From positions 1 to 64,000 of the forward strand of contig NZ_MWQH01000001.1 of the NCBI RefSeq assembly GCF_002210295.1: a stretch of 64,000 nucleotides of DNA, written 5' to 3'. The notes under the pieces are model-generated. The model ran no database searches and was not told the DNA's origin. It saw only the letters and a program-made list of their open reading frames with translations. Within the stretch, counting starts at the first letter, position 1. Each line of letters begins with the position of its first letter. The position numbers and the translations under genes were made by a program. Shown piece after piece: positions 30,365-47,712 of the stretch. Origin of the DNA: Fibrobacter sp. UWB5. GTDB taxonomy: Bacteria; Fibrobacterota; Fibrobacteria; Fibrobacterales; Fibrobacteraceae.

Positions 30365-30378
30365 GGTTGTTGAAAGAT

Positions 30379-33561: not shown

Positions 33562-33575
33562 AATGAACTCCTTTT

Positions 33576-35318
33576 TTATGCATGGTTTATAGCAGCGAAG
33601 ATGGTTTCACACAGTTTTATCAGTTGTTCTAAAGTCTCCTGTTGCAAGGCATTTTCTTTTTCAATGCATATCCATTTTTCACTTTCGTTCTCTGTGTATC
33701 GAAGGCTTGTGTCCCAATTTTGAATTAAGGTGATAACTTTGTTTTTTATAGCAGCATTCTCAATAGGAATATCTTCGGTAGAAGATAGATATGGTACATC
33801 ATTTGTGATAAGAGTGTTTTCAATGTTTCTATTGTTTAAGACATTGGTTATAATTTCATAGAAGTGATGATCTTCTACAGAATGAAAACAAGTACGATTC
33901 CATTTCCCTACAAAATTTTTTTGTTTCCATTCTTCAAATTCTTTTTGTTTCCATTCATCTATGAGCTTATTTAGCTCTATTAGTGCTTTTGAATCTTTTT
34001 CATATTGTTCGATACCTTTCTCATTAGAATACTTTTCGTCATTTTTTTGGGGATATTGTCGATTAGAGCGCCAGCATTTTTTGATGTTGTTCCAATTGAC
34101 TTTATAATAATCTATATGAGTATTTTGAGTGAATTCTATATCTAAATCTGTTATTCTTTCTCCTTTAAATCGTCCTCCTTCGTATGCAGCATAAATTGTC
34201 AATGCTTCTAATATATATCCTGTTAAATAGTAGATATCTTTTAGTAAGTAATTTTTTTTCTCTAATTCATCATTGAAATGCTTGAATTTCTTCTTAAGCA
34301 AAACATCATTTTTATCCAGTTCCGCTTCAAGATTTGATAAAACCTTCCTATCCCTTAACAAGATTTTGTATTCTTTAGATTGGTATACATCTTTTTTTGT
34401 ATATGATTTATGTTGCTTGCGGAAAATCTTATTTTTTCTTAATTGAGATTCTTGTTTGTCTAAGTATGTTATATACTCTGTTTCGTCCAGTTGCTTTTTT
34501 AATTTATCTATATTTTCTTCTAAATAAGTTTTTTGTTCATTAATTGTTTTTTCTACATCTTTTATAAATGCATCAATTTCTTCTAATTTATTGATGTCGT
34601 CATTTAATTCTTGGAAAATTGCGTTCAAATTTGAATCATACGATTTCAATTTATTGCTTAATGCTTTTGTTTGGTGCTCTTGATTATTTAGTTTAATTGA
34701 AAATTCTTCTAATAGATGTGCATTTTCATTTTCTTGCAATTCCTCTCGCTTCAAAGATTCGCTATGTATCCTTTGCGGAAATTCTTGGTCAATTTCGTTT
34801 GCAATAGATTCTAGCTGATGTACACAATCTTTCAATTTGGAAGATAGTTGTTCTAGAAAAATACTATTTTCTTTAATTTTAAGTTTTTGTTCCCTTTGCC
34901 GAATAAAATCTTCTTTTAATTGAGCATTAATTGTTTCTAAGAGCGTAGTTGGTTGGCATGTAGAATTATCGGATTCATTTAACAAATCATTCTGCTGGAT
35001 TAACCACATCGTGCTATTTTGTAATTGGTTCGAGATGTTTGCTAATGGTTCCGTTTTTTCTTGGTAAAAGGCATTTGTTTCTTGCAACCATTCTCGATGT
35101 TTATCTATAGATGCAGTTTGTTTCTGCAGCAAGGAAATCCATTTTTTTAGGAGTGCATATTTTTTTGCAATATAATCTTCTTTACTTATTAATTGAATGG
35201 CTTTTTCTTTTAACAAATCGCTTTTTTTTGGTGTTATTTCCCATTCTGTATTTTTGAAAAACATTTGACATGCTGCCAAATGTCTTTTTGCTGTATATAG
35301 ATACTCCCTATGTTTCAT
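33576..35318 (-). CDS. HEPN-like protein split by a long coiled coil (partner of copy 1)
   Basis: The product is about 580 residues. The first ~25 residues (HREYLYTAKRHLAAC) and a later segment (LLKDIYYLTGYILEA) align with the start and residues 35-49 of the 231-residue paralogue at 43796. In this copy they are separated by roughly 320 residues of predominantly charged, Leu/Ile-spaced helix that looks like coiled coil. The YYLxGYxxEA segment is typical of HEPN folds, but I see no R-x4-6-H RNase motif. The start at 35318 aligns with the paralogue; an in-frame ATG at 35327 would add three residues. Role unknown; always next to the KGGVGR ATPase here. Confidence 0.75.
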   Translation of the reverse strand: MKHREYLYTAKRHLAACQMFFKNTEWEITPKKSDLLKEKAIQLISKEDYIAKKYALLKKWISLLQKQTASIDKHREWLQETNAFYQEKTEPLANISNQLQNSTMWLIQQNDLLNESDNSTCQPTTLLETINAQLKEDFIRQREQKLKIKENSIFLEQLSSKLKDCVHQLESIANEIDQEFPQRIHSESLKREELQENENAHLLEEFSIKLNNQEHQTKALSNKLKSYDSNLNAIFQELNDDINKLEEIDAFIKDVEKTINEQKTYLEENIDKLKKQLDETEYITYLDKQESQLRKNKIFRKQHKSYTKKDVYQSKEYKILLRDRKVLSNLEAELDKNDVLLKKKFKHFNDELEKKNYLLKDIYYLTGYILEALTIYAAYEGGRFKGERITDLDIEFTQNTHIDYYKVNWNNIKKCWRSNRQYPQKNDEKYSNEKGIEQYEKDSKALIELNKLIDEWKQKEFEEWKQKNFVGKWNRTCFHSVEDHHFYEIITNVLNNRNIENTLITNDVPYLSSTEDIPIENAAIKNKVITLIQNWDTSLRYTENESEKWICIEKENALQQETLEQLIKLCETIFAAINHA

Positions 35319-35334
35319 TGTGTTCATATCACGA

Positions 35335-35340
35335 AATATA
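35335..35340 (-). promoter_or_regulatory. Shared promoter box of HEPN/KGGVGR module 1
   Basis: On the - strand, AAAAAAGAGATATATTTCG ends a few bases before the start codons at 35327 and 35318. The other module has AAAAAAGTGATATATTTCA at the same place (43774-43791). TATATT is the probable -10 box, so the message would be leaderless or nearly so. No Shine-Dalgarno sequence is visible in either copy. Confidence 0.5.
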
Positions 35341-35428
35341 TCTCTTTTTTCTAGAAAAGACTAATAATTATATGAAAAGAGATGCTTTACGTCTAAACTG
35401 TTCGAATCCTCCAAAGTAGATCGTGCTA

Positions 35429-36421
35429 TTAAAAAGCCCGGAGGGCGGATTTGTAATGTCCGTCCTCGCGAACTTCCAGAATTTTTGCGTTGACAAGTCG
35501 CTTGAAAACTCTGTCCAGTTTCTTGCCTCGCCAGTGCAGCCTACCTTTTATTGCGCCGTAGGCTTTCCATGTCTGCAGAATTTCAAGAACTGCATCAAAG
35601 CCTTGCAGTCTTTTACGCGATGCACGCGTATTGGGCAGTCCAAGAATGCAGCATTTATCTTTCTCTGAAAAATCTCTGTAGCCAGCTCCCTCAGCGCAAC
35701 GCGACATCAGCACGATGCTGCAGTCGTCAGAGGTTTTTTGCTTTACAAGATTTTCGAAAGTGCTGTTCAACATTCGCGACATGTAATCGGCGTCGCAAGC
35801 GGAAGCTAGCTTTACTAAGCGGGTAAGGGAAGGAGAAAGGACTTTATCCCGTTTGTTATAAAAACCAGTCTCCGTGCCGTCGGACATCAAGATGAATCCC
35901 GAAATTTGATTCAAGTTCCCCTTGATAATCTTCATGCTTGCGATGGCGTCGCTTGATGTCGTAAAGACTGTGGTATTTGCAAACTCACCGTTTTCTGGGT
36001 GGGAGGCTACAAGCACCTTGTCATCTTTGACATAGCCGATGACTCCATCTCCGATGTGGCAAATGATGAATTTTCCAGCCTTTTCTGCAACGAATAGCAA
36101 GGTAGAGGCAAGATCTTTGATGGTACATTTTTTTTCAAGACAGAGTGCGTTGAGGCTGTTGCCTACGACTGCGAGAATATTCTGCTTTACAACGACTCCG
36201 TCTTCGTTGATTATGGCGTCAAAGTTGTCTGCCATGTAGTCGCAAATCGTTTTCGCAACGGTTTCGGCTCCAAAGTGCGAGAGAAAGGCGGAGCCCGCCC
36301 CGTCGGCAAGGGCGCACACGGTGCATGAACCTTTGACGATGGAGTAGGTCTTGTCTTGGCAGGGGGTGTCGGTTTTCAGGTGACCCTTGCCTTGCACGGC
36401 GCATTGCTGTGTATACCACAT
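35429..36421 (-). CDS. PP2C-like protein phosphatase of a TerY-P triad
   Basis: The 330-residue product has PP2C metal-site motifs: CALADGAGSAFLSHFGAE near residue 35, ILMSDGTETGFYN in the middle, and SDDCSIVLMSR. It should dephosphorylate Ser/Thr residues, probably opposing the kinase two genes upstream. The ~80-residue C-terminal tail (GFDAVLEILQTWKAYGAIKG, then KLDRVFKRLVNAKILE) looks like a winged helix. The ATG at 36421 lies 1 bp after the VWA stop, with GGAG 8 nt upstream. It resembles the YegK-type member of the kinase-VWA-PP2C triad. The last codons form GCCC-TCC-GGGC before TTTTT, a possible built-in terminator. Confidence 0.82.
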   Translation of the reverse strand: MWYTQQCAVQGKGHLKTDTPCQDKTYSIVKGSCTVCALADGAGSAFLSHFGAETVAKTICDYMADNFDAIINEDGVVVKQNILAVVGNSLNALCLEKKCTIKDLASTLLFVAEKAGKFIICHIGDGVIGYVKDDKVLVASHPENGEFANTTVFTTSSDAIASMKIIKGNLNQISGFILMSDGTETGFYNKRDKVLSPSLTRLVKLASACDADYMSRMLNSTFENLVKQKTSDDCSIVLMSRCAEGAGYRDFSEKDKCCILGLPNTRASRKRLQGFDAVLEILQTWKAYGAIKGRLHWRGKKLDRVFKRLVNAKILEVREDGHYKSALRAF

Positions 36422-36422
36422 G

Positions 36423-37109
36423 CTACAGCTCCGCCCAGCCATTGATACCGTCTGTATCCAGCTTGATTTTGTCGCCCGGAGAGGACTGCGTCACTTTCGA
36501 CACGCTCTTACTGAGCCAGGCGAAAAATTCCTTGAAGTTCAATCCCTGCAGCTTGAGGGGCGGGCGCTTTGGAGAGAACCTTGCCAGCACATCCATATCG
36601 GCTTCTTCGCCGATACCGATGGGGAAGACGGTCAGCTTGCGTTCGTTGACCATGTCGCAGGTACGCTGGATTGCCCTTGAGAGTTCCGAGTTGTCGCCAT
36701 TGGGCCTGCCGTCCGTCATCAAGACGATCCACGGCTGGTAATAATCCACACCGCTGCTCTTGTATTCGGACTTGCGCTGTTCCAGCATGTCGAGCGCCAT
36801 GTTCATGGCTTCGCCCATGGGTGTACCTCCATTGGCGTAAAACTCAGGTGTTTCGGACTGGTGCTCAAGGGTGTTGAAGTCTGTTTTGCGAGTGACTGTT
36901 CCACCGAATGTCACGACCGAAATCTCGGCGGAGTACAGGGCGGTTTCATCGCTGCGCACCGCGTCGTAAAACAGACGTACTCCTTCACTGAGTTCGTTGA
37001 TGGGATCTCCGCTCATCGAACCGCTAGTATCCAGAACGAGACACACCGGCACGCGGGTGGAGGGGTTGTTTTCGAGGTCTTCGAGGTTGAGGAGAGTTTC
37101 TTTTTCCAT
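36423..37109 (-). CDS. TerY-like von Willebrand factor A domain protein
   Basis: The 228-residue product is a single VWA domain with an intact MIDAS: DTSGSMSG near residue 27, a Thr in GGTPMGEAMN and the Asp of LMTDGRPNG. In the TerY-P triads described by Aravind and co-workers (E. coli YegL type), VWA, kinase and PP2C genes are adjacent, and the VWA protein is proposed to act as a metal-dependent scaffold or substrate. No TerD or TerC gene is nearby. The AAGGA site before the ATG supports this start. Confidence 0.87.
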   Translation of the reverse strand: MEKETLLNLEDLENNPSTRVPVCLVLDTSGSMSGDPINELSEGVRLFYDAVRSDETALYSAEISVVTFGGTVTRKTDFNTLEHQSETPEFYANGGTPMGEAMNMALDMLEQRKSEYKSSGVDYYQPWIVLMTDGRPNGDNSELSRAIQRTCDMVNERKLTVFPIGIGEEADMDVLARFSPKRPPLKLQGLNFKEFFAWLSKSVSKVTQSSPGDKIKLDTDGINGWAEL

Positions 37110-37146
37110 GATGTTTTTCCTTATGTTTTGATTGTTGGTGTTAGAG

Positions 37147-38370
37147 TTAATGGAATAAGCAGTTGAAAAAACTGCGAGATTTACTTTGAACGGTCTTCCT
37201 TACAGGGGCTCGTGAAGTGCGATTTCTCAATTGACGGCTAAGCCATATCTTTCGTTGGCACTCCATGCAGATTCCCTCTTTGGTAAAATGAGATTGATCA
37301 GTGTCTTCGTTGCAGCGTGGGCACACAACGTAGGTAACCCCTTTTTGCTTCTTGAAACGAGTCGGGTAAAGTTCTTCTGACATTTTGTCCTGCTCGCCTA
37401 ATTTCCCCGTATCAAGTAAGCCTAGGTAGTAGTTGAGTTTTTTGTACCATTCAAAGGCGCCTAATCGAGTGTTCTCAGTAGAATATTTACCCCCCTTGCT
37501 GAAAGTCTCATAGAAAGCCTCTTTTAGGTATTTGGGCAGGTGGCTCCACAGGAATCTCCAGGGACCGTTGGGAGTCTTCTTGTTAGATTTCTCTCCAAGG
37601 GGGTACGAAAAATCCATGTTGATGATGTTTCCCTGGGAAGTTTCGCCTCCTTTCTGGTTGTATGGCATTTGCCCTGTTACCATCAAAGAGAACAGAAGGA
37701 CTGCCACGGCAAAATTTTCGTTGCCTATAGTGCGAAGGAAGCTGTTGTATGCACCCTTGTTTTGCAGTTCGGGTGCGGTAAACGGAATGGTTCCTACAGC
37801 GCAGGGATATCCATCTACTTGGTAAGAGTCGCAGTCTACGAAGTACACTTCCTTGGGTGTTCTAACCAGAATGTTATCCGGGTTGATGTCTCCAAGAACG
37901 ATCCCCTTTGAATGTAGGTAGCCGATTCTTCGTAAGATGTTGACGCAAAGCTCAGTCAGGTCGCGTTTCCGCCAGTGAGGAAATGTCTTCTTAAGAAGCG
38001 GCTTGATGTAAAGGTTGCGGAGCTTTACGCCATCTGCCTTCTCCATCAGGTAGCCTACAAATTCGTTTTTCGAGTTGTAAAGTAGTGCCTTAGGAAGGCA
38101 GATTCCGGGGCAAGAGAGGCCCATGCGCAGCAACGCCTGGAGCTTCGCGAGCCTATGGGACGTGGTCTTTTCAGGCTTGTAAACTTTAGCCACGTAGGGT
38201 GTGTTTGTCTTGAAAACCGAACCCTCACCACCTTCACCCAATACAGAGCCAAGCGTCACAGACTGTTGGTTTTGCGTATGCAGAACATCGCCTGGTTTGA
38301 CAGACTTGGTCACAGGGAGCCTTCGATCAGGGGCAATTTTTTGCATAGGCTTATTCAAAATCGGGTTCAT
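37147..38370 (-). CDS. Protein kinase with C-terminal zinc ribbon (TerY-P triad)
   Basis: The 407-residue product has the glycine-rich loop LGEGGEGSVF, a probable ATP-binding Lys in YVAKVYKP, a catalytic loop GDINPDNILV (GD replaces RD) and metal-binding VDCDSYQ in place of DFG. The APE-like TAPEL is present. The C terminus has a zinc ribbon (CPRCNED and CMEC) and a basic tail. This is the YegI-like kinase family. The frame opens further upstream but GGAGA lies 8 nt before the ATG at 38370, so I chose that start. It overlaps the preceding gene by 20 bp. Confidence 0.83.
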   Translation of the reverse strand: MNPILNKPMQKIAPDRRLPVTKSVKPGDVLHTQNQQSVTLGSVLGEGGEGSVFKTNTPYVAKVYKPEKTTSHRLAKLQALLRMGLSCPGICLPKALLYNSKNEFVGYLMEKADGVKLRNLYIKPLLKKTFPHWRKRDLTELCVNILRRIGYLHSKGIVLGDINPDNILVRTPKEVYFVDCDSYQVDGYPCAVGTIPFTAPELQNKGAYNSFLRTIGNENFAVAVLLFSLMVTGQMPYNQKGGETSQGNIINMDFSYPLGEKSNKKTPNGPWRFLWSHLPKYLKEAFYETFSKGGKYSTENTRLGAFEWYKKLNYYLGLLDTGKLGEQDKMSEELYPTRFKKQKGVTYVVCPRCNEDTDQSHFTKEGICMECQRKIWLSRQLRNRTSRAPVRKTVQSKSRSFFNCLFH

Positions 38371-38962
38371 CGTTGTTCTCCATGGATTCATTGTCATGGG
38401 AAGTCGCCTTTCTAGGCAGACTCGCATGTACATTTGGCGGACAGATGGCATTCATGGCGATGATTTCGCCAAGTCTTCTGCAGTGCGACAAGGCATCATC
38501 TGGGAAAATGATGTCATACCGCTCATTAGTGAAATCCATTTCCGTAGTTACGGCGTCAGGCGAAACTTGCTTCAGAAAGCGTTCATTACAGACTCTTTTA
38601 CGGTGATTCTCGCCTTCTTTTTCTGTAAAATACCCTCGAATCTCAAACGTTTCGTCACCAAAAAATGCGTGCAGTATCAGGTTATAATCGGCTAAGCCAT
38701 CTTGGAGGTTCACTGCAATGAAATAGCGGCACGCATCGTCATTAAACCAGTCTACAATAGTGCCTGTATTGCGCCAATCCAATTGAACGAGGTCTATGTC
38801 TTTTTGTGTAATTGGAGGCATCCTGTCGTTTAAGGGCACCTTTTTCGCGACAACATAGCCATCGGTGCTTTTTGTATCAAGTGACAATGTTATGCTGCCG
38901 TTTTGGTTGTTTAGACATGTGTAACCGAAGGGAAACATGTCGATCAATTGTTTAGATTCCAT
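38351..38962 (-). CDS. Unrecognised 203-residue protein upstream of the kinase
   Basis: I do not recognise a family. The protein is soluble by appearance and acidic at the C terminus (SMENNDEPDFE), with aromatic-rich segments (FPFGYTCLNN, LILHAFFGDETFEIRGYFTE). AAGGAG stands 9 nt before the ATG at 38962, and the 3' end overlaps the kinase gene by 20 bp, so it is translated with the triad. It may be an adaptor or kinase substrate; this is inferred from position only. Confidence 0.7.
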   Translation of the reverse strand: MESKQLIDMFPFGYTCLNNQNGSITLSLDTKSTDGYVVAKKVPLNDRMPPITQKDIDLVQLDWRNTGTIVDWFNDDACRYFIAVNLQDGLADYNLILHAFFGDETFEIRGYFTEKEGENHRKRVCNERFLKQVSPDAVTTEMDFTNERYDIIFPDDALSHCRRLGEIIAMNAICPPNVHASLPRKATSHDNESMENNDEPDFE

Positions 38963-39009
38963 GAATTAAGGCTCCTTTGGAATAAGTGGCGTTAAGAAAA
39001 ATAAAGGGT

Positions 39010-39046
39010 GGTTCCCATTTTACCATGCGCAGGGAACCTTGGCGCT
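39010..39046 (-). ncRNA. Island hairpin element, copy 1
   Basis: On the - strand GGTTCCC and GGGAACC enclose a 15-nt loop containing GCGCATGGTAAAA, preceded by AGCGCCAA. It lies about 29 bp after the stop of the 33-residue ORF and before the 203-residue gene. It is followed by a T-rich stretch (TTTATTTTTCTT). Confidence 0.65.
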
Positions 39047-39066
39047 TTTCTCGGTGATCCACAACA

Positions 39067-39168
39067 CTATTTACCGAGTTTTTCTGCAGCTTCCTGAATT
39101 GCCTCAATGATCGGCTTTGCCGCATCAATAAGGGTCTTCGCCACTTCAATCACTTCTTTGACTTGCAT
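39067..39168 (-). CDS. 33-residue microprotein
   Basis: The ORF encodes a short helix-prone amphipathic peptide beginning MQVKEVIEVAKTLIDAAKPI and ending EKLGK. AGGAAG precedes the ATG. It lies between the 29-residue ORF and hairpin copy 1 in the same orientation as its neighbours. The good ribosome-binding site and island position argue for a real gene. No homologue is recognised. Role unknown; a membrane-active or partner-binding peptide is possible. Confidence 0.6.
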   Translation of the reverse strand: MQVKEVIEVAKTLIDAAKPIIEAIQEAAEKLGK

Positions 39169-39192
39169 TGTTTTCTTCCTATGGTTGTTTCG

Positions 39193-39214
39193 CCCCTCTC
39201 CGGCGCGGGGGCAC
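39193..39214 (-). ncRNA. Possible divergent fifth hairpin element
   Basis: Between the two microprotein ORFs the - strand holds GCCCC, an 11-nt loop CGCGCCGGAGA, and GGGGC. The loop shares GCGC and CGG with the four hairpin elements, but the stem differs and the loop is shorter. A neighbouring AGTGCAA-GCA-TTGCACT hairpin lies just 5' of it. Confidence 0.3.
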
Positions 39215-39243
39215 ACGCATGTTCACAAAGTGCAATGCTTGCA

Positions 39244-39333
39244 CTAAGTACGTTCGCTGTCTTTCTTAGTCATCTTTTCGTAGATGGCGATAGCTGCAGC
39301 AACGATTTCAAGAACCGTGAGAACTTGTTTCAT
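39244..39333 (-). CDS. 29-residue hydrophobic microprotein
   Basis: The ORF begins MKQVLTVLEIVAAAIAIYEK and ends with a charged tail (KKDSERT). AGGAGA lies about 8 nt before the ATG. The hydrophobic stretch of about 15 residues could insert in or lie on a membrane. It follows GTPase 1 and hairpin copy 2. No family is recognised. Confidence 0.6.
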   Translation of the reverse strand: MKQVLTVLEIVAAAIAIYEKMTKKDSERT

Positions 39334-39357
39334 TGTTGTTTCTCCTAGAGAAGATTG

Positions 39358-39388
39358 ATGCTCCCAGTTTACCGTGCGCCGAGAGCAT
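39358..39388 (-). ncRNA. Island hairpin element, copy 2 (changed stem)
   Basis: The - strand stem is ATGCTCTC with GGGAGCAT, including one G-U pair, around a 15-nt loop with GGCGCACGGTAAAC. The loop matches the other copies while the stem bases differ on both sides, so pairing is kept. The mismatch exists only on the + strand reading, which supports an RNA from the - strand. Confidence 0.65.
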
Positions 39389-39419
39389 TCGCGCAAGAGA
39401 CGGTTTGGTCAATCTTTTG

Positions 39420-40427
39420 TTACCAACCAAAGAAGCTGCCGAAGAATGAACTAACGCAACTCTTGACCGCACCGAAAGCGCCGCCGATGATGCGACCGCC
39501 GATACGACCTACCACACGACCTGCGCTACCGAAGCAGCTGCCAAGGCTTTCTCCCACGTCGGCACCGATGTCGGCGCATTCCGAAATAGATTCGGCGATG
39601 TCGTCCATGATGCTCTTGCGATAATCTTTGAGCTCGTCATCATCCGTCCACATTTCACGCTTGCGGTTGATGTTGTTTACGAAAATTGTGCGTTTTTCCT
39701 TGGGCGTGTAGTGGACAATCTGGTATAGAAGCTTCGTCAGGTTATAGGGACGCTGCGGCTTGTCGCCATCCTTATAGCCTGCGCTATAGTAGATGGGTTC
39801 CACATCAACGCCGGTACTTTCCATGATGCGTCTTTTGACCGATTCCACCTTTTCTTCAAGGAAACGTTCCAGCTCGGGTTCGGGCTTGTTGTTCTCGCGA
39901 TCCCAGCCGCGACCCTTCATGGCCATGTCGGCCTGGTTGATTGCCACCAGGATGCGCCCCTTGTCCTCGCCCAAGTTTGGCACGATCACGTTGCTGATGA
40001 GTTCGAAGGATGTTCCCATGTCGCGGGAACTGCCGTCGAGAATTACCAGCACGAGGTCAATAAGCGGATTGCCTTCGCTGTCGCGTTCGAGGAGCTTTGC
40101 CGTCAGGTTTTTCGCATGGCGGTTGTCTGCTTCCTTGCCGTCGCCAAGACCCGGGCTATCCCACAGAATCAGGTTGCCGAGTTCGTACTTTTCGATATCC
40201 ATTGTCTCGGGATCCACACCTACGCCCACCTTTGACACGTCAGCGTCGAAGAGTGCATTAATCGTGGAGCTCTTGCCACACCCCGTGGCACCCGTAACGA
40301 GCAAATTCACTTTTCTGCCCTTGAGCAGGAGCAGGTTGGCAATCAGCTTGCGCTTGATGGCTTCAGGAAGGCCGGAAGCTTCGATATCGCGCTGCATTTT
40401 TTCGATGAATTCTTGGTTGTTCTTCAT
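39420..40427 (-). CDS. Island GTPase 1 with glycine-zipper tail
   Basis: The 335-residue product is a TRAFAC-class (Era/YfjP/IRG-like) GTPase: G1 GATGCGKSS, a Thr-containing switch after VGVGVDPETM, G3 DSPGLGD, G4 NQAD instead of NKxD, and a probable G5 in SAGYKDG. The last ~35 residues (GRVVGRIGGRIIGGAFGAVK, then SSFFGSFFGW) form a glycine-zipper-like hydrophobic tail suggesting membrane insertion. AGGAG before the ATG at 40427 decides the start; the frame is open further upstream. It is closely related to GTPase 2, encoded just upstream. Confidence 0.85.
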   Translation of the reverse strand: MKNNQEFIEKMQRDIEASGLPEAIKRKLIANLLLLKGRKVNLLVTGATGCGKSSTINALFDADVSKVGVGVDPETMDIEKYELGNLILWDSPGLGDGKEADNRHAKNLTAKLLERDSEGNPLIDLVLVILDGSSRDMGTSFELISNVIVPNLGEDKGRILVAINQADMAMKGRGWDRENNKPEPELERFLEEKVESVKRRIMESTGVDVEPIYYSAGYKDGDKPQRPYNLTKLLYQIVHYTPKEKRTIFVNNINRKREMWTDDDELKDYRKSIMDDIAESISECADIGADVGESLGSCFGSAGRVVGRIGGRIIGGAFGAVKSCVSSFFGSFFGW

Positions 40428-40497
40428 TTTTTTACTCCTATTGAGTTTAGTGTTAGTTTGTGATCGTTTAAGTTTTCCCGTAAAGACTCTCTCATTT

Positions 40498-41181
40498 TCA
40501 TGCACAGTTAGCGGGCGGTCGATAGCAGGGGATCTGTGCTACTACAGCATCGATGACTGCTTGCACGTTGTAGCCCGTCTCCGCTGAGAAGCACACCGGC
40601 GTACGGATAGAAACGCCCGTCGCCTCGTAAACACGACGCTTGACAGACTCCGCCTTGTCGCGTAGGAACGAATTGAGCTCCGCATCGGGCCTGTTGTTCG
40701 CATAATCCCAATGCATCCCTTTCATGGCGACATCGGCTTGATTGATTGCCACCAAGATACGGTCGCGTTCGATATTGGGAACAACCACCTCGTTCAAGAG
40801 CGAATAGCACGAACCCATATCGCGAATGCCGCCTTCAAGTACCACCAGGACAAGGTCCATGAAGAGGCAGAGTTTGTTACCCTTCTTGTACGTTTTTAGC
40901 AGCGAATCAACGAGCTTGCGCTTGTGTCTCGCATCAGCGGCAGTACTGTCGCCAAGACCCGGCGTGTCCCAAACGCGGAAACGATTGCTAAGCGAGTGTT
41001 GACTCACTTCCATCGTTTCGGGATCAACTCCCGTACCTACTTTGGCAACGGGTTTGCTCATAAGAGCGTTCACGAGCGTAGACTTGCCGGCTCCCGTAGC
41101 GCCCACAATAAGCACATCGAGAGGCAGGTCGTCACCTACACGGTGGTAGATGTCGTTTTCACGATAGTTCAGGATGTTCAT
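40498..41181 (-). CDS. Island GTPase 2
   Basis: The 227-residue paralogue of GTPase 1 lacks its C-terminal tail. G1 is GATGAGKST, G3 is DTPGLGD, G4 is NQAD and a probable G5 is FSAETGYN. Both share VGxGVDPETM, RDMG and the DRILVAINQAD segment. AGGAG 7 nt upstream fixes the ATG at 41181. A ~100-bp repeat carrying a TATAAT box lies about 40 bp before the start. The pair may form a heterodimer; this is inferred. Confidence 0.85.
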   Translation of the reverse strand: MNILNYRENDIYHRVGDDLPLDVLIVGATGAGKSTLVNALMSKPVAKVGTGVDPETMEVSQHSLSNRFRVWDTPGLGDSTAADARHKRKLVDSLLKTYKKGNKLCLFMDLVLVVLEGGIRDMGSCYSLLNEVVVPNIERDRILVAINQADVAMKGMHWDYANNRPDAELNSFLRDKAESVKRRVYEATGVSIRTPVCFSAETGYNVQAVIDAVVAQIPCYRPPANCA

Positions 41182-41215
41182 GTCGTTACTCCTTTTGGGA
41201 AATTTCTTTCTGTTT

Positions 41216-41316
41216 CTGTCTATTATATCAGCTGTTGTTTCCGATTCTATAACCAGTATTTTGAAAAAAAAGTGAAGTGGTTCCCGTTTTACCATGCGCA
41301 GGGAACCTTGGCGCTA
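41216..41316 (-). promoter_or_regulatory. Hairpin-plus-promoter repeat before GTPase 2
   Basis: The 101-bp unit is roughly 90% identical to 41554-41652. In - strand order it holds hairpin copy 3 (GGTTCCC 41307-41301, loop, GGGAACC 41285-41279), a T8 run, the conserved box CTGGTTATAGAATCGG, and TATAAT (41227-41222), 40 bp before the GTPase 2 start. It can therefore end the upstream message and begin the next one. Confidence 0.6.
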
Positions 41317-41338
41317 TTACACGTAATACGGGTTAAGT

Positions 41339-41521
41339 TCACGGATCAAACAGATTGCCGATACCGTTGAGAATATCGCATACGCATTCTCCCGCAAATT
41401 CAACGGCATCCCCTGCAAGTTCAAGTGTTTCGTAGAGGATTTCGTCAGAATGCTTCGCAACTTCGTTAGCGATGGTTGTGCCGACCTGTGTTCCGATTGT
41501 TTTAGCGATGATTTCAATCAT
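41339..41521 (-). CDS. 60-residue amphipathic protein
   Basis: The ORF begins MIEIIAKTIGTQVGTTIANE and contains LAGDAVEFAGECVCDILNGI. It has a pattern of small and hydrophobic residues suggestive of an amphipathic or membrane-associated helix pair. AAGGAA precedes the ATG at 41521; the open frame upstream of it lacks a ribosome-binding site. It stands between the sigma-like gene and GTPase 2 and is framed by the two hairpin-promoter repeats, so it may be a separate transcript. No family is recognised. Confidence 0.65.
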   Translation of the reverse strand: MIEIIAKTIGTQVGTTIANEVAKHSDEILYETLELAGDAVEFAGECVCDILNGIGNLFDP

Positions 41522-41553
41522 TGTGTGTTTCCTTTGGCGCTCCTGCACCGGTT

Positions 41554-41652
41554 CTATCTATTATATCGGCCGTTAATCCCGATTCTATAACCAGTATTCT
41601 GAAAAAAGTGAAGAGGTTCCCGCTTTACTATGCGCAGGGAACCTTGGCGCTA
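41554..41652 (-). promoter_or_regulatory. Hairpin-plus-promoter repeat before the 60-residue gene
   Basis: The 99-bp counterpart of 41216-41316 begins within the last codon of the sigma-like gene. It holds hairpin copy 4 (GGTTCCC 41643-41637, loop with GCGCATAGTAAAG, GGGAACC 41621-41615), a T6 run, the box CTGGTTATAGAATCGG and TATAAT (41565-41560), 38 bp before the next start codon. Confidence 0.6.
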
Positions 41653-42333
41653 CCCATTCTGATTTTCAAGATATTCTTGCAGAAGCTTGGTATTCAGCCG
41701 TTTTCTGAGAGACTTGAGATTTTTGCTGACGGCTGGTTGCGAGATGCCTAACAGTTGTGCGACGGCACTTTCACTTTCAGCCTCCCCTTCAATCCATGTT
41801 GTCAATATGTCATGCGTGCGACTTTCAGAGGGGACAGCTTCCAATATGGCCTTTATCAGATTATGATTGTCTGTTTCCGAAGAATCAGACTCGTGATTAT
41901 CGGTGTCAAATTGGCGCCATACCGTTGCGTTCCCGTAATCAACGTACTTGCCAAGCGAAACATTATGCCCGTTGTTGCAGCGCCATGTTCCAGCCTCGGC
42001 CTTGTATTGCGCTTTAGCGATTTCGTTTTTCTCCTCAAACGACCATTCAATCTCTCGATTCATCCAGGTTGCAAAAGAACATACGGGCTTGTAGTTTCGG
42101 CACGTTTTGTCAAATGCTTCATAGGCGGCACCAAAAACAAACCATTGTTTCCGTGCGTCATCGTTTCGTAACTTTGCAATTTCGTAATCAAAGGGATGTC
42201 TGTTGAAATGGTACATGGCCGCCGCCTCAAATTTTTCTCTATAGAAATCATAGAGGGTGTGGATGGAGGCAATGTCGCCGTCATTCTGGACTTTTGCAAT
42301 GAGGGCAAGGCGTGCTTCTTTATCGAGTTTCAT
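41650..42333 (-). CDS. Sigma-70-like transcription factor
   Basis: The 227-residue product has a region-2-like segment near residues 68-95 (AYEAFDKTCRNY, SFATWMNREIEW) and a region-4 helix-turn-helix near residues 192-217 (SAVAQLLGISQPAVSKNLKS, LRKRL). This is the two-domain layout of ECF or phage-type sigma factors. AGGAGA before the ATG at 42333 decides the start. It may direct transcription from the two repeated promoters downstream; that is inferred. A plain HTH regulator is the alternative. Confidence 0.75.
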   Translation of the reverse strand: MKLDKEARLALIAKVQNDGDIASIHTLYDFYREKFEAAAMYHFNRHPFDYEIAKLRNDDARKQWFVFGAAYEAFDKTCRNYKPVCSFATWMNREIEWSFEEKNEIAKAQYKAEAGTWRCNNGHNVSLGKYVDYGNATVWRQFDTDNHESDSSETDNHNLIKAILEAVPSESRTHDILTTWIEGEAESESAVAQLLGISQPAVSKNLKSLRKRLNTKLLQEYLENQNG

Positions 42334-42400
42334 TCTTCTATCTCCTTTTGCACAATGGCAAGAAAACGACATCAGGGACATCCTGATTTCGTGATAGGTT

Positions 42401-42432
42401 CGGCTCTTTAGAGCGAAAGCGGTAAAGAGCCG
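42401..42432. repeat. 10-bp inverted repeat upstream of the sigma-like gene
   Basis: CGGCTCTTTA and TAAAGAGCCG are perfect arms separated by 12 bp (GAGCGAAAGCGG). It lies about 68 bp before the sigma-like start and has no T-run on either side, so an operator or RNA switch is likelier than a terminator. A smaller palindrome, ATCAGG-GACAT-CCTGAT (42371-42387), lies closer to the gene. Confidence 0.5.
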
Positions 42433-42538
42433 TATAGCGCCCGATTTTTGGTATCAGGCAAACCAATCAGATAGAAGCGCCTTTTTGCCGTAGGCGAACG
42501 GACTCGAGTTTAATGCCTTCGAGCGAGGCATGGGATTC

Positions 42539-42580
42539 CTAAAGAATCTTGCTAAGAATGAATGCTGCGATCAATAGCAT
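42539..42580 (-). CDS. 13-residue hydrophobic mini-ORF
   Basis: The ORF reads MLLIAAFILSKIL and is preceded by GGAGGT at good spacing, one of the strongest ribosome-binding sites in the island. It lies in the 298-bp gap between viperin and the sigma-like gene. It may be a leader peptide or a free membrane microprotein. At this length a chance ORF cannot be ruled out. Confidence 0.4.
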   Translation of the reverse strand: MLLIAAFILSKIL

Positions 42581-42631
42581 TTCAGACCTCCGTGTTAGAG
42601 TGAATCCAAGTAATGATGATGATGTCAAGGG

Positions 42632-43555
42632 TTACGCCGCAGAAGCGAGCTTCATCTTGGCGATGGTTGCGTCTGTGGCGACCGATGTGTAGCGATTGAA
42701 GAATTTGCCCTCCGCAAAGCCGACTTCTTTCATAGCCACTTCAAAGGGTGTGCTCATGAGAGGGTGGCTGTAGCGGTACTCAGCTTGACCATTTTGGAAA
42801 AGCCGCCCGTCTGGAGCTATCATCAGGTAGCTGCCCAGCATAGCAGCATTGTCTTCTACGAAAATATGCTGGCTGGGTGCGCCATCTGATGCGAAAAGAT
42901 CTTCACGGTAGTTGTTGCGCAGGAACGAGAAAAATTGCTCGTCAGTAACCCCCTTGCAACAGTCAAAGGGAATTTGGCGAAGAATCTTGTATTTTGTTGC
43001 GCCAAGAGCGGCGACCTTGTCAACCAGGAGCTCGTTGTAATTGTTCTGATTGACAACAGTGTTTACCTTGATGCGGATTTTCGGGTTGATGGCGCGGAGA
43101 GTGACCAACTTGGAAGCTATTTCTTCATAGCTCAATGTCTTGCCGTGGCAATGGCGACCAATCTTGAGATTGGTTTCATGCGAGAAGGAATCAAGAGAAA
43201 CCCCAACCTGCGAAAACAGGCGGGCAAATGGAAAGATATTTTCTAAATGGCTCCCGTTGGAGATGACGGAAACCTCGGCGCCGTAAGCGCGCGCCGTTTT
43301 GGCGACAAACTGAATTTTGTCTTTGAAAAGGGACGGCTCTCCACCGACAATGCTCAAACGCCAAGGTGTACCGGATTCGCCAAAATGGTCCCTATGGAAC
43401 TTGGCGATGTTCTCGATAATCTGGCGTACATTCGAGGGGTCGTTCCAGACCTCGTTTTGGTGGTTATGCCACTTGGAATAGCACCCTTGGCAGCTGAAGT
43501 TACATACAGCGCATGCGTGGAAATTGATGACGAGGGGAAGAGTCGTGTTCTTCAT
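42632..43555 (-). CDS. Prokaryotic viperin homologue (radical SAM)
   Basis: Viperins convert CTP, GTP or UTP to 3'-deoxy-3',4'-didehydro nucleotides that terminate viral RNA synthesis. The 307-residue product has the 4Fe-4S motif C18-x3-C22-x2-C25 (VCNFSCQGCYSKW), the SAM-binding GGEPSL, then SNGS. A series of blocks matches human viperin in order: VSLDSFSHETNLKIGRH (viperin CDSFDEEVNVLIGRG), IKVNTVVNQNN (INSVINRFN), KYKILRQIPF (RWKVFQCLL) and GSYLMIAPDGR (DSYLILDEYMR). It lacks the N-terminal amphipathic helix of the animal enzyme. The comparison is from memory of family sequences. TAGGA precedes the ATG. Confidence 0.88.
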   Translation of the reverse strand: MKNTTLPLVINFHACAVCNFSCQGCYSKWHNHQNEVWNDPSNVRQIIENIAKFHRDHFGESGTPWRLSIVGGEPSLFKDKIQFVAKTARAYGAEVSVISNGSHLENIFPFARLFSQVGVSLDSFSHETNLKIGRHCHGKTLSYEEIASKLVTLRAINPKIRIKVNTVVNQNNYNELLVDKVAALGATKYKILRQIPFDCCKGVTDEQFFSFLRNNYREDLFASDGAPSQHIFVEDNAAMLGSYLMIAPDGRLFQNGQAEYRYSHPLMSTPFEVAMKEVGFAEGKFFNRYTSVATDATIAKMKLASAA

Positions 43556-43598
43556 GGGAATCCTATCCTTCTAGGCCCCGACACCGCTTCATTCAACC

Positions 43599-43606
43599 CA
43601 AACTTA
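43599..43606 (-). promoter_or_regulatory. Candidate viperin -10 box
   Basis: TAAGTTTG on the - strand matches TAnnTTTG, 43 bp before the viperin start. No TTGACA stands upstream; that position is occupied by the palindromic repeats, as expected for a regulated promoter. Confidence 0.45.
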
Positions 43607-43615
43607 CTCCCGCCT

Positions 43616-43650
43616 AGGTTACAAAGGCGAGCTGTAACCTGCGGTTACAG
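43616..43650. promoter_or_regulatory. Palindromic operator candidate upstream of viperin
   Basis: Three alternating half-sites occur: GGTTACA (43617-43623), TGTAACC (43633-43639) and GGTTACA (43643-43649). The last two form the palindrome CTGTAACC-TGC-GGTTACAG. The first pair forms AGGTTACA-N9-TGTAACCT. The cluster abuts the likely viperin promoter. Confidence 0.6.
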
Positions 43651-43782
43651 AATTAAAAAAGCGGCACAAAGGCACTATGTATTCATATAAGATTCCCGCT
43701 CCGAAGAACAGGAGGCTAAAAAACCTACTTCAATTATATAAAAATCTTGTGGGTTCGGCAAGTTTTTTTTTCAAAAAAGTGA

Positions 43783-43788
43783 TATATT
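43783..43788 (+). promoter_or_regulatory. Shared promoter box of HEPN/KGGVGR module 2
   Basis: TATATT in AAAAAAGTGATATATTTCA ends 7 bp before the start codon at 43796. The sequence is nearly the same as that ahead of module 1. No ribosome-binding site is visible, so a leaderless message is likely if this box is used. Confidence 0.5.
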
Positions 43789-43795
43789 TCACGTT

Positions 43796-44491
43796 ATGAA
43801 GTACAGAGAGTATCTAGATACTGCGCAGAGGCACTTGGCAACATGCAAAAAATTTGTAAAAACTATTAATGAAAGTGAAATTTCAGATAAGAAGAACCTG
43901 CTAAAGGATATTTATTATTTGTCGGGTTACATTTTTGAAGCCGTCACGGTATTCATTATTTATAAGACAGGATACTCTCATGTAAGAGATCTTTATAAGA
44001 TGCAAGGCAAAGTGTTTGAGCCGGACAAACATGATGTTGATGAATTTATCAAAGAATTTACGCAATTTACAAAAGTCGATTATTATCCAGTTTATAATGG
44101 AATCACAAAAAGAATTTATTTGGGGAGTAGAATAAGAGATCCTATAACTAAAAAAAGGTTGAAAATAAGCGATGATGATAAAAAGTTTTTAAATGAATTT
44201 AATGGTCTTAATGCCATAGAACAACATCATTTTGTAAATCTAATAGAAAACATAAAAAATGATAAAGAATTGTTTGACGTCATTTTCCCGCCATCAGAAA
44301 ACGTTCCCTTTTTTGTCACTCCAGTTACTATTGAGGTTGAAGCTCTTATAAGAGGATGGTCTTCAGGACTTCGATATTCTGATGCCTTTTTGTGGGAAAA
44401 AATTGAAAAGGATCTTAACGAATCGTCTTTGAAAGATCTTCTTGATGTTTGTCAAGAAATCGTTTTTTACTCATATCAAAAAAAGACTTGA
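43796..44491 (+). CDS. HEPN-like protein (partner of copy 2)
   Basis: The 231-residue product opens MKYREYLDTAQRHLATCKKF and continues to LLKDIYYLSGYIFEAVTVFI (35-54), an arrangement typical of HEPN folds. The shared C-terminal part contains IEQHHF (VEDHHF in the paralogue). The catalytic R-x4-6-H of HEPN RNases is not evident. It is the compact version of the 33576-35318 product, without the coiled-coil insertion. The KGGVGR ATPase follows 18 bp later. Confidence 0.75.
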   Translation: MKYREYLDTAQRHLATCKKFVKTINESEISDKKNLLKDIYYLSGYIFEAVTVFIIYKTGYSHVRDLYKMQGKVFEPDKHDVDEFIKEFTQFTKVDYYPVYNGITKRIYLGSRIRDPITKKRLKISDDDKKFLNEFNGLNAIEQHHFVNLIENIKNDKELFDVIFPPSENVPFFVTPVTIEVEALIRGWSSGLRYSDAFLWEKIEKDLNESSLKDLLDVCQEIVFYSYQKKT

Positions 44492-44509
44492 TTATGGTCA
44501 GGAGATAGT

Positions 44510-47500
44510 ATGATACTCATAACAACGTATGCAAAAGAGCTTGAAAAATTTCTGACTAAAAAACAGGATTCTAGAGAAGTTCGGAAATTTAAAATTTTTG
44601 TACGAATTGGTTTCCAATTGGATGTATATGTTTTTACAGAAGACTGCGAATCCCTGCAGAATATTGAAGCGGAATTTTTTGATTACATTTCAAAAACTGG
44701 CTATGCGGTTAATCAGAACAAATTAAGAATATACTTTAATATTTTACCTCTTTCTGAATTAGACGATTCATACTATTCTAAAATGGTTGAAGGTTCGGAA
44801 TCTATAGACTATGGTCCTCGCTATAGATTTGATTCCTTTTTAGGAAAAAAGCAATATGAAATAGCAGATGCAAGCGAATTTCCTCCTGTAATAACTTTTT
44901 ATAGCTATAAAGGTGGCGTAGGACGTACAACGGCAATGATTTCTTATGCATTGCACCTAGCTGCGGATAAGGGGAAAAAGGTTGCCATTATTGATTGCGA
45001 TCTTGAAGCGCCGGGATATTTAAATTTTTTCAATCTATCGGAGCATCCTGAATTAAAAGATGGGAAAAAAAATGGTCTTGTAGAATTTTTATGCGATACG
45101 CAATTTGTTGATAAATCGATTGATATAAATAATTATATTTTAAATATTGGGGTTGATAGAAAACTTAGTAAGCAACATCCTGAATTAGAAAACATTTGGT
45201 TAATGCCGGCTGGTAATTTGAATGACGGAACTAATGATGGTGTATTTAGCCAAAGTAGGCGCGATTATCTAGAAGGGCTTGCTAAGTTAAATTTAGGCAA
45301 TACAAAGAATGTTGTGCAAGGATTTAATAACCTTTTTGGGTATCTAAAAAATTTAAATATTGATGTAATCTTAGTCGATTCTAGAACTGGATTTAATGAT
45401 ATATTCGGAAATGCGATTCTATATCTATCTACGTGTGTTGTAGGTCTATTTGGATATAGTCGACAAACAGAGCCCGGATTCATGAATCTTGTAAATATTC
45501 ACTCGGCGCTTTTGAAGGCGGATGAAAATAAAAATGATAAACATAATGGACAAAGTTTCAAACTGATACTCGCATATTCGATTTTGCCAAACAATGAAAA
45601 GGATCGTATTCCTCCACAAATGAGTGATTTTATAAATCGTTCTTATGAGAATATATTTCCGGCACAATATTTTATTCATAGAAATCCTATTTTAGAAAGT
45701 ATTGGTACGGGAGACGCTGAAATTGATGATCAATTTATAAAAATGAATACGTCCGAATTTGATAAAGATAGGTTTGTAGACTATACAAAATTGTTTGAAG
45801 GAATTGATGATTATTGTTTCTCAGAAAGTCAAGATGATTATGATGAAGGAGTTTCTGAATGTTCAACAAAAAAGCTCATTATTTCTGCTGAAGAGATTTC
45901 TGATCTCACTTCGAAAATAGATCTAAAAAATATTATTCTTTATCATTTGAAAAATGAACTAGAACATACGGGAAAGCAATCAGGAAAAGACGAGCTTATA
46001 GAAAGAGGGTTTCTTTATCGTGAATGCATGAAAAAAGTATTTAACAAGAACTATTTCATCATTGAGGGGATGAAAGGCTCCGGAAAAACATACTTGTGCA
46101 AAGCGTTACAGAATAAGAATATTTTAAATAAAATTAAAGAATGTGCTGACGGCGAACAGGACGTTCAGTATACAAGTATTTGTGTTATGGATGGAAATGA
46201 TAAAATCATTTTTAGCGGTTTATTGGGGGAAACGCTAGATAAATACTCCCCAAATAATATGTCCAACTATGAACATTATTTTAATCATTTTTGGCATATT
46301 TTTACTTGGAATAAATTATTGTACGACGATGGAAATGAAAATCTTGCTGCAATTCGTCACAAGGTTATCACTAATAGCGTGCTTACGAACATAGGGATCG
46401 AACCATTTGGAGGAAAAGTTGATAAAAACAAATATATCCATTATTTAAATGAAATCGTTAAGAAGGATGCACTTTATTATATTAAGGAAGATATAAAGAA
46501 TTTTAATAAAGAGCTCAAACAGCAAAGCAAAAAGATCATTTTGCTTTATGATCAAATTGATTCAAAGCTCCCTTATTGGAAATACATTGCGAATTGCCTT
46601 ATTAAATCTTATTCAGTAAAAAGTATGCGGTATAGCAATATTTTGCCAAAGTTTTTTATTTGTGCAGGTACGCTTGCTCAAGCAAAAGGTAAAGAAAACA
46701 ATCGTTTTTCTGGCAACATTATTAATATTGAATGGAGCATTGAAGAAACATTTGGACTCCTATTTAAAATCATTTTTTCGGATGAATGTGCGAGCAAGGC
46801 GTTTCGAAGTATGGCGATTAAACAAGGAATTGATTTTAACAATATAGATGCTTTAAAGAATGATTTCTTAATTCCCCAAAGGCAGCTAAAATGTCTCTCT
46901 AGAGCATCGTTGGAACAACTAGTTCAAGTTTTTTTTGGAAAATACGTCAATCAATTAGGAAAACCATGGGATTATTTTAAGAAAATGTTGTCCAATGCAG
47001 ATAACAATTCTGTCAATTTATCTTACTTCATAAATATACTCAAAGATAATGCTATTGAACAAGCACTAAAATCAGAACGCTACATAAAAGAAGTCATTTC
47101 ACCGTCAGTATATACTTCAAATGAGATCTTGAAAAAGGCTGCGGGGAGGTATTTTAAGAATCTGGCAAGCGACAAATCAAACGAGATTCTATTAAAATTT
47201 AAGGAAACAGTTCTTCATACTCCACGATTTGTATTTTGTTATAAGTCGATGGAGAGTACTCTGTTTAATCTTTTGATAGAAGAAACTCTTGAAAAAAACA
47301 AAGAATCACTTTTATCACCTTCAGTGTATCGCGCGTCGTTTGAGAAATTAAGAAGACTTATTATTGGTCAAGGGATAATGGCGGAAAAATTTACCAATAA
47401 GGGTTTATTTTATGTATTTGCTCCGATTTATTGGAGTTTATGGCATTTGCAGAATGGTGCGCTTGATGATGGGTTTTACTTCATTGATAACAAGATGTAT

Positions 47501-47626
47501 ATTGAATTATTAAACAAATCAATTGAGCGTAATAGACAATTGAAACGGAATTGTAAAAAAGAACTTCAAATGCTTGCGAAATTGCGCAAGAGAAAGTACT
47601 TGTTTAGTGTAACTGGAACTTGTTGA
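44510..47626 (+). CDS. KGGVGR-variant dual P-loop ATPase (copy 2)
   Basis: The 1038-residue paralogue of the 30379-33561 product shares KFKIFVRIGFQLDVYVF, YGPRYRFDSF, KGGVGRTT (134-141), IIDCDLEAPG and ILVDSRTGFND. A second P-loop, GMKGSGKT, occurs near residue 520. The C terminus differs: it ends in a basic helical stretch rather than the Gly/Ala-rich tail of copy 1. AGGAGA precedes the ATG. The gene is AT-rich relative to the flanking host genes. By context with viperin and the HEPN partner a defence role is plausible but unproven. Confidence 0.85.
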   Translation: MILITTYAKELEKFLTKKQDSREVRKFKIFVRIGFQLDVYVFTEDCESLQNIEAEFFDYISKTGYAVNQNKLRIYFNILPLSELDDSYYSKMVEGSESIDYGPRYRFDSFLGKKQYEIADASEFPPVITFYSYKGGVGRTTAMISYALHLAADKGKKVAIIDCDLEAPGYLNFFNLSEHPELKDGKKNGLVEFLCDTQFVDKSIDINNYILNIGVDRKLSKQHPELENIWLMPAGNLNDGTNDGVFSQSRRDYLEGLAKLNLGNTKNVVQGFNNLFGYLKNLNIDVILVDSRTGFNDIFGNAILYLSTCVVGLFGYSRQTEPGFMNLVNIHSALLKADENKNDKHNGQSFKLILAYSILPNNEKDRIPPQMSDFINRSYENIFPAQYFIHRNPILESIGTGDAEIDDQFIKMNTSEFDKDRFVDYTKLFEGIDDYCFSESQDDYDEGVSECSTKKLIISAEEISDLTSKIDLKNIILYHLKNELEHTGKQSGKDELIERGFLYRECMKKVFNKNYFIIEGMKGSGKTYLCKALQNKNILNKIKECADGEQDVQYTSICVMDGNDKIIFSGLLGETLDKYSPNNMSNYEHYFNHFWHIFTWNKLLYDDGNENLAAIRHKVITNSVLTNIGIEPFGGKVDKNKYIHYLNEIVKKDALYYIKEDIKNFNKELKQQSKKIILLYDQIDSKLPYWKYIANCLIKSYSVKSMRYSNILPKFFICAGTLAQAKGKENNRFSGNIINIEWSIEETFGLLFKIIFSDECASKAFRSMAIKQGIDFNNIDALKNDFLIPQRQLKCLSRASLEQLVQVFFGKYVNQLGKPWDYFKKMLSNADNNSVNLSYFINILKDNAIEQALKSERYIKEVISPSVYTSNEILKKAAGRYFKNLASDKSNEILLKFKETVLHTPRFVFCYKSMESTLFNLLIEETLEKNKESLLSPSVYRASFEKLRRLIIGQGIMAEKFTNKGLFYVFAPIYWSLWHLQNGALDDGFYFIDNKMYIELLNKSIERNRQLKRNCKKELQMLAKLRKRKYLFSVTGTC

Positions 47627-47665
47627 TGCCTTTTTATAGAATATATTTTATCCTATAGAATTTTG

Positions 47666-47698
47666 ACTTAACATCTTATATATTGCAAGATGTTAAGT
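47666..47698. repeat. 12-bp perfect inverted repeat at the island edge
   Basis: ACTTAACATCTT (47666-47677) and AAGATGTTAAGT (47687-47698) are separated by 9 bp. It lies between two convergent genes, so it could be a shared terminator, but neither side has a long T-run. It also marks the right border of the island. Confidence 0.6.
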
Positions 47699-47712
47699 AA
47701 CAATATTGTCGC

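Follow-up and report, generated by a model that had tools for sequence, protein, structure and literature searches.

Predicted RNA pseudoknots and putative internal promoters at gene junctions of a prokaryotic viperin operon in Fibrobacter

Introduction

Little is known about how the parts of bacterial antiviral operons are timed and balanced. The repeated elements described here, found in an operon of Fibrobacter sp. UWB5, resemble several described systems in part. Like intrinsic terminators, they place a stem-loop past the stop codon, and in relatives from two further Fibrobacter genomes (G075 and G023) a T-run abuts the stem or nearly so; unlike intrinsic terminators, the structure is a predicted pseudoknot with a conserved loop, and the T-run within the operon is displaced from it or missing. 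H-type pseudoknot riboswitches, exemplified by SAM-V (PMC6061858) and preQ1 (PMC11625349), share the two-stem topology within about 30–40 nt and often an A-containing loop 3, whereas the present elements are intercistronic and occur in several copies per operon, Rfam has no match to them, and they are not known to contain a conserved ligand-pocket sequence. The type III toxin–antitoxin RNAs ToxI and CptI are likewise repeated pseudoknot RNAs in a phage-defence setting, but here genes separate the copies and the tandem arrangement is absent. No Pfam match to a ToxN-type nuclease was found among ten proteins of the region, and the locus does not classify as a type III toxin–antitoxin system.

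For the regulatory protein, the closest counterparts are ECF and degenerate sigma-70 autoregulators, in which, as here, a sigma-like gene is immediately followed by a promoter whose −35-region box is private to it. The present protein differs in scoring under the family cut-off, in the TATAAT form of the −10 element and in having a large insert that separates the region-2-like part from the helix-turn-helix (HTH). As in other prokaryotic viperin (pVip) defence loci, a bona fide pVip is the first gene of the operon; its linkage to a sigma-like protein, small peptides, GTPases and a kinase–VWA–PP2C set is absent from the other Fibrobacter pVip loci examined. The parts are thus of known kinds: a structured intercistronic RNA, an internal promoter, a divergent sigma and a viperin locus. 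Neither Rfam nor the open-access literature searched, whose silence is weak evidence, contains this RNA family, describes its nearly constant spacing from stop codons or reports it together with a private promoter in a viperin operon. The viperin operon appears to own a promoter, a sigma-like protein and a repeated intercistronic RNA element, each of which is located to the base below.

Gene content of the operon

The analysed stretch of 64,000 nucleotides (contig NZ_MWQH01000001.1, positions 1–64,000; hereafter the window) belongs to the 3.36-Mb genome (G000) of a rumen-type Fibrobacter. The repeats lie in a prokaryotic viperin operon that also contains kinase, VWA, PP2C and GTPase genes, all on the minus strand, in the order viperin, sigma-like gene, pepA, GTPase 1, GTPase 2, pepB, pepC, D and kinase/VWA/PP2C. 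The product of the first gene (42632–43555) scores 250.2 bits against the curated pVip model NF038283, above its cut-off of 180, and matches the PADLOC pVip model with an E-value of 2.3e-71, which places it in the pVip family. An ordinary promoter of the sigma-70 type, TTGCCG-17-TATAAT, was located by a promoter scan for this gene at 43733–43761 (minus). The sigma-like protein (41650–42333) has 227 residues and a C-terminal HTH. It is followed by pepA (41339–41521), which encodes 60 residues, by GTPase 1 (40498–41181; MMR_HSR1/AIG1-like) and by GTPase 2 (39420–40427; MMR_HSR1/IIGP-like, with a Gly-rich C-terminus), both GTPases being assigned by profile matches. The small genes pepB (39244–39333; 29 residues) and pepC (39067–39168; 33 residues) precede gene D (38351–38962; 203 residues), which travels with the kinase–VWA–PP2C set. 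These last three genes lie downstream of D (35429–38451) and were also recognized by profile matches. The pepA and D products belong to no known family.

At the operon locus, the closest relative is Fibrobacter succinogenes RUG14609 (locus L029). It carries the sigma-like gene, pepA, pepB, pepC, D, kinase, VWA and PP2C in the same order, and lacks both GTPases and the second repeat copy. The pepA, pepB and pepC products are 65–88% identical between the two genomes (65, 75 and 88%, respectively), and the differences in pepA and pepC fall mostly on third codon positions, so the small frames are real genes. The 60-residue gene that the initial annotation had placed between the repeats is upheld by this comparison; pepA has relatives in four other genomes, and its substitutions are of the coding type.

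A further frame of 13 codons, MLLIAAFILSKIL, with a good ribosome site, lies between the viperin and sigma-like genes (42580–42539, minus). Its counterpart in RUG14609 is VLLIAAIILGKIL, with changes that are mostly synonymous.

Organization of the two repeats

Global alignment of 41554–41652 with 41216–41316 (both minus) gives 89 identical positions out of 101, with one 2-nt gap in the T-run, in agreement with the approximately 90% identity originally reported. A repeat search recovers the same pair as families D1 (88%) and D2 (94%). Copy 1 (41554–41652) starts on the sigma-like gene's stop codon and extends toward pepA, with pseudoknot H1, the T-run and promoter-like unit P1 in succession; copy 2 (41216–41316), between pepA and GTPase 1, combines pseudoknot H2, the T-run and unit P2. 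The sequence CTGGTTATAGAATCGG is exact in both copies (41241–41256 and 41579–41594), and the genome search that had been proposed for the box returned no other exact match in 3.36 Mb. The TATAAT hexamers at 41565–41560 and 41227–41222 lie 38 and 40 nt before the ATG codons at 41521 and 41181, as had been annotated.

Comparison with RUG14609 shows that each repeat is composed of two separable elements, a promoter-like unit and a pseudoknot. In that genome, two promoter units stand in tandem between the sigma-like gene and pepA with no hairpin, and the two elements are therefore independent of each other. A phage or plasmid origin of the repeat was considered and rejected, as no phage or plasmid match to it was found; neither of the two pseudoknot patterns has an exact match in viral contigs.

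A promoter-like unit private to the operon

The promoter-like unit spans 42 bp and reads TGGTTRTRG...GATATAATAGRYAGAA. Sequence comparison places P1 (TGGTTATAG ... GATATAATAGATAGAA) at 41552–41593 and P2, which contains the extended −10 element TGATATAAT, at 41214–41255, both on the minus strand. Among 80 Fibrobacter genomes, the 42-bp pattern has exactly four matches, two here and two in RUG14609, and the reversed control has none. TGGTT.T.G and GATATAATAG..AGAA are common to the four copies at identical spacing. The claim that the −35 region departs from TTGACA and is nevertheless conserved thus holds over two species. Because the matches are confined to the two genomes that carry the sigma-like protein, the unit is private to the operon and outside any wider regulon. 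A dedicated sigma with a wide regulon was rejected, the box occurring nowhere else in the genome.

Each unit here is preceded by an A/T tract, CACTTTTTTC at 41601–41610 before P1, in a position like that of an UP element, and CACTTTTTTTTC at 41263–41274 before P2 (both minus). The tract CACTTTTT precedes the box in three of the four promoter copies, namely both here and one of the two in RUG14609. As the RUG14609 copy keeps it where the hairpin is absent, the tract is more likely an upstream promoter element than a terminator tail.

From these comparisons we infer promoter activity for P1 and P2. Their −10 element is a perfect TATAAT of the housekeeping type. Every copy has a G at −14, and the extended −10 is complete in P2. 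A scan for a TTGACA-like −35 element 16–18 nt from TATAAT lists the viperin promoter and neither P1 nor P2.

The sigma-like protein and its relation to the box

The sigma-like protein matches the sigma70-ECF model TIGR02937 weakly over residues 66–217 (E=5.6e-7; 29.3 bits against a curated cut-off of 42.9). The same model is matched by four of six proteins of the sigma-like type, neighbours of pepA-like genes included. Compared with its RUG14609 counterpart, the protein is 70–95% identical over roughly its first 100 residues and much less similar C-terminally, where the SQxxVSKxxKS motif of the HTH is kept and region 4 has otherwise diverged. An AlphaFold model, built from two sequences, is of low confidence (pLDDT 44).

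The segment 41610–41884, comprising the 3' end of the sigma-like gene and H1, does not align with RUG14609, and its flanking sides align at 86% and 74%, a pattern like that left by a recombinational exchange of region 4.

Close relatives of the protein occur only here and in RUG14609 among the 80 Fibrobacter genomes, and pepA adjoins or is near a sigma-like gene in four (G000, G091, G034 and G023). The promoter unit and the sigma-like gene co-occur exclusively, in two of the 80 genomes, with the promoter directly 3' of the gene. This co-occurrence strengthens the original proposal of a dedicated sigma factor, which is plausible. It does not amount to proof, because both parts sit in the same rare, mobile operon, and the pattern fits a dedicated sigma but equally some other regulatory protein of this locus.

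In the latter case, the housekeeping sigma would read P1 and P2 from their −10 elements, and TGGTTRTRG would be the site of an activator or repressor, possibly the sigma-like HTH protein acting as an ordinary regulator. The lack of a TTGACA-like hexamer is as expected of activator-dependent promoters, and the HTH also matches LysR/MarR-type models weakly. However, the box has no conserved dyad (a possible ATCGG/CCGAT dyad is perfect in P1 only), and the overall match of the protein is to sigma-70 models. We regard this reading as less likely than direct recognition of the box by the sigma-like protein.

Pseudoknots at the gene junctions

The initial annotation described a hairpin in each repeat. 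Both hairpins are present, but the structure is found outside the repeats as well, as a third near-identical copy at 39010–39040 and in diverged form at 39395–39359 and 39218–39192. It is best read as an H-type pseudoknot, in which the 5' flank GCGC pairs with the GCGC that opens the loop (stem S1), GGTTCCC pairs with GGGAACC (stem S2) and GTAAA lies within loop 3. Five copies are predicted in this operon and three in RUG14609. H1 (41615–41650) overlaps the preceding gene, the first base of its S1 being the last base of the sigma-like stop codon TAG. H2 (41279–41314) begins 24 nt past the pepA stop, and H3 (39359–39395) 24 nt past the GTPase 2 stop and 25 nt ahead of pepB; the stem sequence of H3 is different and its pairing is kept. 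H4 (39192–39218), 25 nt past the pepB stop and 23 nt ahead of pepC, attains the same topology by other sequence (GCGUG/CGCGC and GCCCC/GGGGC). H5 (39010–39045), 21 nt past the pepC stop and ahead of D, contains the third near-identical copy. All five are on the minus strand.

In the six copies that can be aligned, S1 and S2 form throughout, with 66 of 66 cells paired (100%). Three pairs are changed on both sides, two in S2 and one in S1; the RUG14609 copy before pepB has both sides of S1 altered, to ACGC/GCGU. In none of 500 shuffles did the covariation score or the percentage paired rise to the value observed, and slid controls were at most 55% paired. Two interleaved helices with covariation, as an H-type pseudoknot requires, were accordingly found. 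In each of the eight copies from the two genomes, the best helix between flank and loop occupies the same position. H3 and H4 contain G–U pairs that are possible on the coding strand and lost on the opposite one, which indicates RNA of the coding strand as the folded molecule. Since the S1 helix by itself is no more than mildly unlikely in each copy (shuffle p 0.05–0.15), and since the near-identical H1, H2 and H5 amount to a single observation, the support for the pseudoknot is the joint pattern; for S1 it consists of one compensatory change and the same topology in unrelated sequences. A search with Rfam covariance models gave no meaningful match for any pseudoknot, including the variant of G023 and G075.

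Relatives of the element are found beyond these two genomes. In G023, a pepA relative lies near a sigma-like gene, and a related pseudoknot (GCTCGC-TG-GCCCG-GCGAGT-AAAAAA-CGGGC) begins 24 nt past its stop codon and is followed by seven T after 3 nt. In G075, a near-identical element lies between PP2C and D, with six T directly after it (0 nt). The pattern of this variant has exactly two matches in the 80 genomes, the one after the pepA relative and the one before D. The pseudoknot, which has two sequence variants, therefore travels with pepA- or D-type genes in four genomes or more. No such pseudoknot follows the pepA relatives of G034 and G005, behind which lie different structures (a hairpin AAGTACG/CGTACTT, then a further stem-loop). 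The third hairpin copy (39010–39040) has no match within three mismatches in 60 related genomes, a set that does not contain RUG14609. A general Fibrobacter repeat or terminator was rejected, the covariance model having strong copies only here and in RUG14609, and a 32-bit match of this model in G087 was discarded as unrelated sequence.

Position relative to the preceding gene is nearly fixed. To the gaps of 21–25 nt given above, the RUG14609 pepA junction adds one of 24 nt; the exceptions are H1 and the G075 element, whose gap is 13 nt. Pseudoknots of this geometry and strength occur at a density of about 0.08 per kb, as estimated on both strands of about 323 kb (the window and the loci), and fewer than one per thousand genes is thus expected at a given 10-nt target.

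The stop-side placement bears on whether the pseudoknots might instead be 5' regulators of the following gene, acting in translation control or as sensors of a small molecule or protein. H3, H4 and the G075 element do end 22–26 nt ahead of the next start codon, and H-type pseudoknots are common among riboswitch folds. Yet H1 and H2 (where a promoter intervenes), H5 and the G023 element lie 38–97 nt off, so that the distance to the next start ranges from 23 to 97 nt and the distance from the preceding stop is the steadier of the two. This, and the empty Rfam search, make a 5' regulatory function rather doubtful.

Intrinsic termination followed by a dedicated-sigma promoter, as first annotated, is an unlikely account of the repeats. 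Each has the hairpin and a T-rich stretch, and the short spacing of the T-runs in G075 and G023 is favourable to it. Within the operon, though, the hairpin loop is large (15 nt) and the T-run begins 7–8 nt 3' of the stem, whereas an intrinsic terminator has it within about 2 nt of a G+C-rich hairpin, and a terminator scan does not list the repeats. H3 of this genome and H4 have no T-run, and RUG14609 retains the T-run before the promoter where the hairpin is absent, which argues against its role as a terminator tail. The terminator half of the annotated cassette is therefore unsupported as stated, and its promoter half is backed by comparison. A 3'-end or termination role of the pseudoknot itself is possible, given the T-runs 0–3 nt off in the G075 and G023 relatives.

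Proposed function of the junctions

In the reading we prefer, to which we assign a probability of roughly one half, each repeat is a two-part junction within a viperin antiviral operon, made up of a 3'-end pseudoknot and an internal promoter whose box is read by the sigma-like protein. The 5' part, an H-type RNA pseudoknot placed at five gene junctions of the operon, would close the message of the preceding gene. As a 3'-end element in RNA it may block exonucleases or partly terminate transcription, and the small cistrons would thereby be expressed separately. The 3' part would be an internal promoter composed of the upstream A/T tract, the TGGTTRTRG box in the −35 region and GATATAATAG; from it transcription would start anew, into pepA and, in the case of copy 2, into the GTPase pair. 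The product of the sigma-like gene immediately upstream would recognize the box, and the operon might in this way turn on its own peptide and GTPase genes once this protein is made or released. Sequence comparison establishes the repeat itself, shows that promoter and pseudoknot are independent and that the stems covary and sit at a nearly constant distance from stop codons, and documents the exclusive co-occurrence of the promoter with the sigma-like gene.

That the repeats are a by-product of recent duplication or recombination that imported the GTPase pair, with no selected role, is improbable: RUG14609 lacks the pair and copy 2, and the end of the sigma-like gene with H1 is unalignable between the genomes, but RUG14609 conserves both the promoter and the pseudoknots without the repeat around them, and two additional genomes have the pseudoknot.

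If the pseudoknots act as 3'-end elements, they would constitute an unannotated family of structured RNA linked to defence genes; should the box be read by the sigma-like protein, the defence system would have a private transcription switch beside a kinase–phosphatase module. More speculatively, the locus may be a modular defence operon that joins a new mRNA pseudoknot family, about 24 nt past the stops of small cistrons, to a private promoter for peptide and effector modules read by the operon's own divergent sigma. The cassettes would then be plug-in junctions for the gain of effectors such as the GTPase pair, a tentative proposal.

Genomic surroundings

The operon occupies an insertion hotspot between HtpX and RarA (29312–49002). 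In G034, a related system with other effectors is also located between HtpX and RarA, and the pepA relative of G005 is found close to LemA/HtpX. The G034 set (L077, 9196–15008, minus) comprises D–kinase–VWA–PP2C, a pepA relative and two sigma-like genes, together with a NYN/LOTUS protein, a dNMP-kinase-like protein and an anaerobic ribonucleotide reductase, which replace viperin and the GTPases. By gene content, the nucleotide-related effectors appear swappable.

On either side of the operon lies a gene pair for a KGGVGR-type AAA ATPase and its partner (30379–35327, minus; 43796–47626, plus); the two pairs are paralogous, and such flanking pairs are present in RUG14609 too. The adjacent GTPase pair (39420–41181) has a counterpart pair in the distant genome G259 (L079, 8895–10751), where it adjoins an NlpC/LRAT-like protein and the remaining operon is absent. 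The EF-Tu gene occurs twice in the window (1–1185 and 51970–53154), with identical protein sequences.
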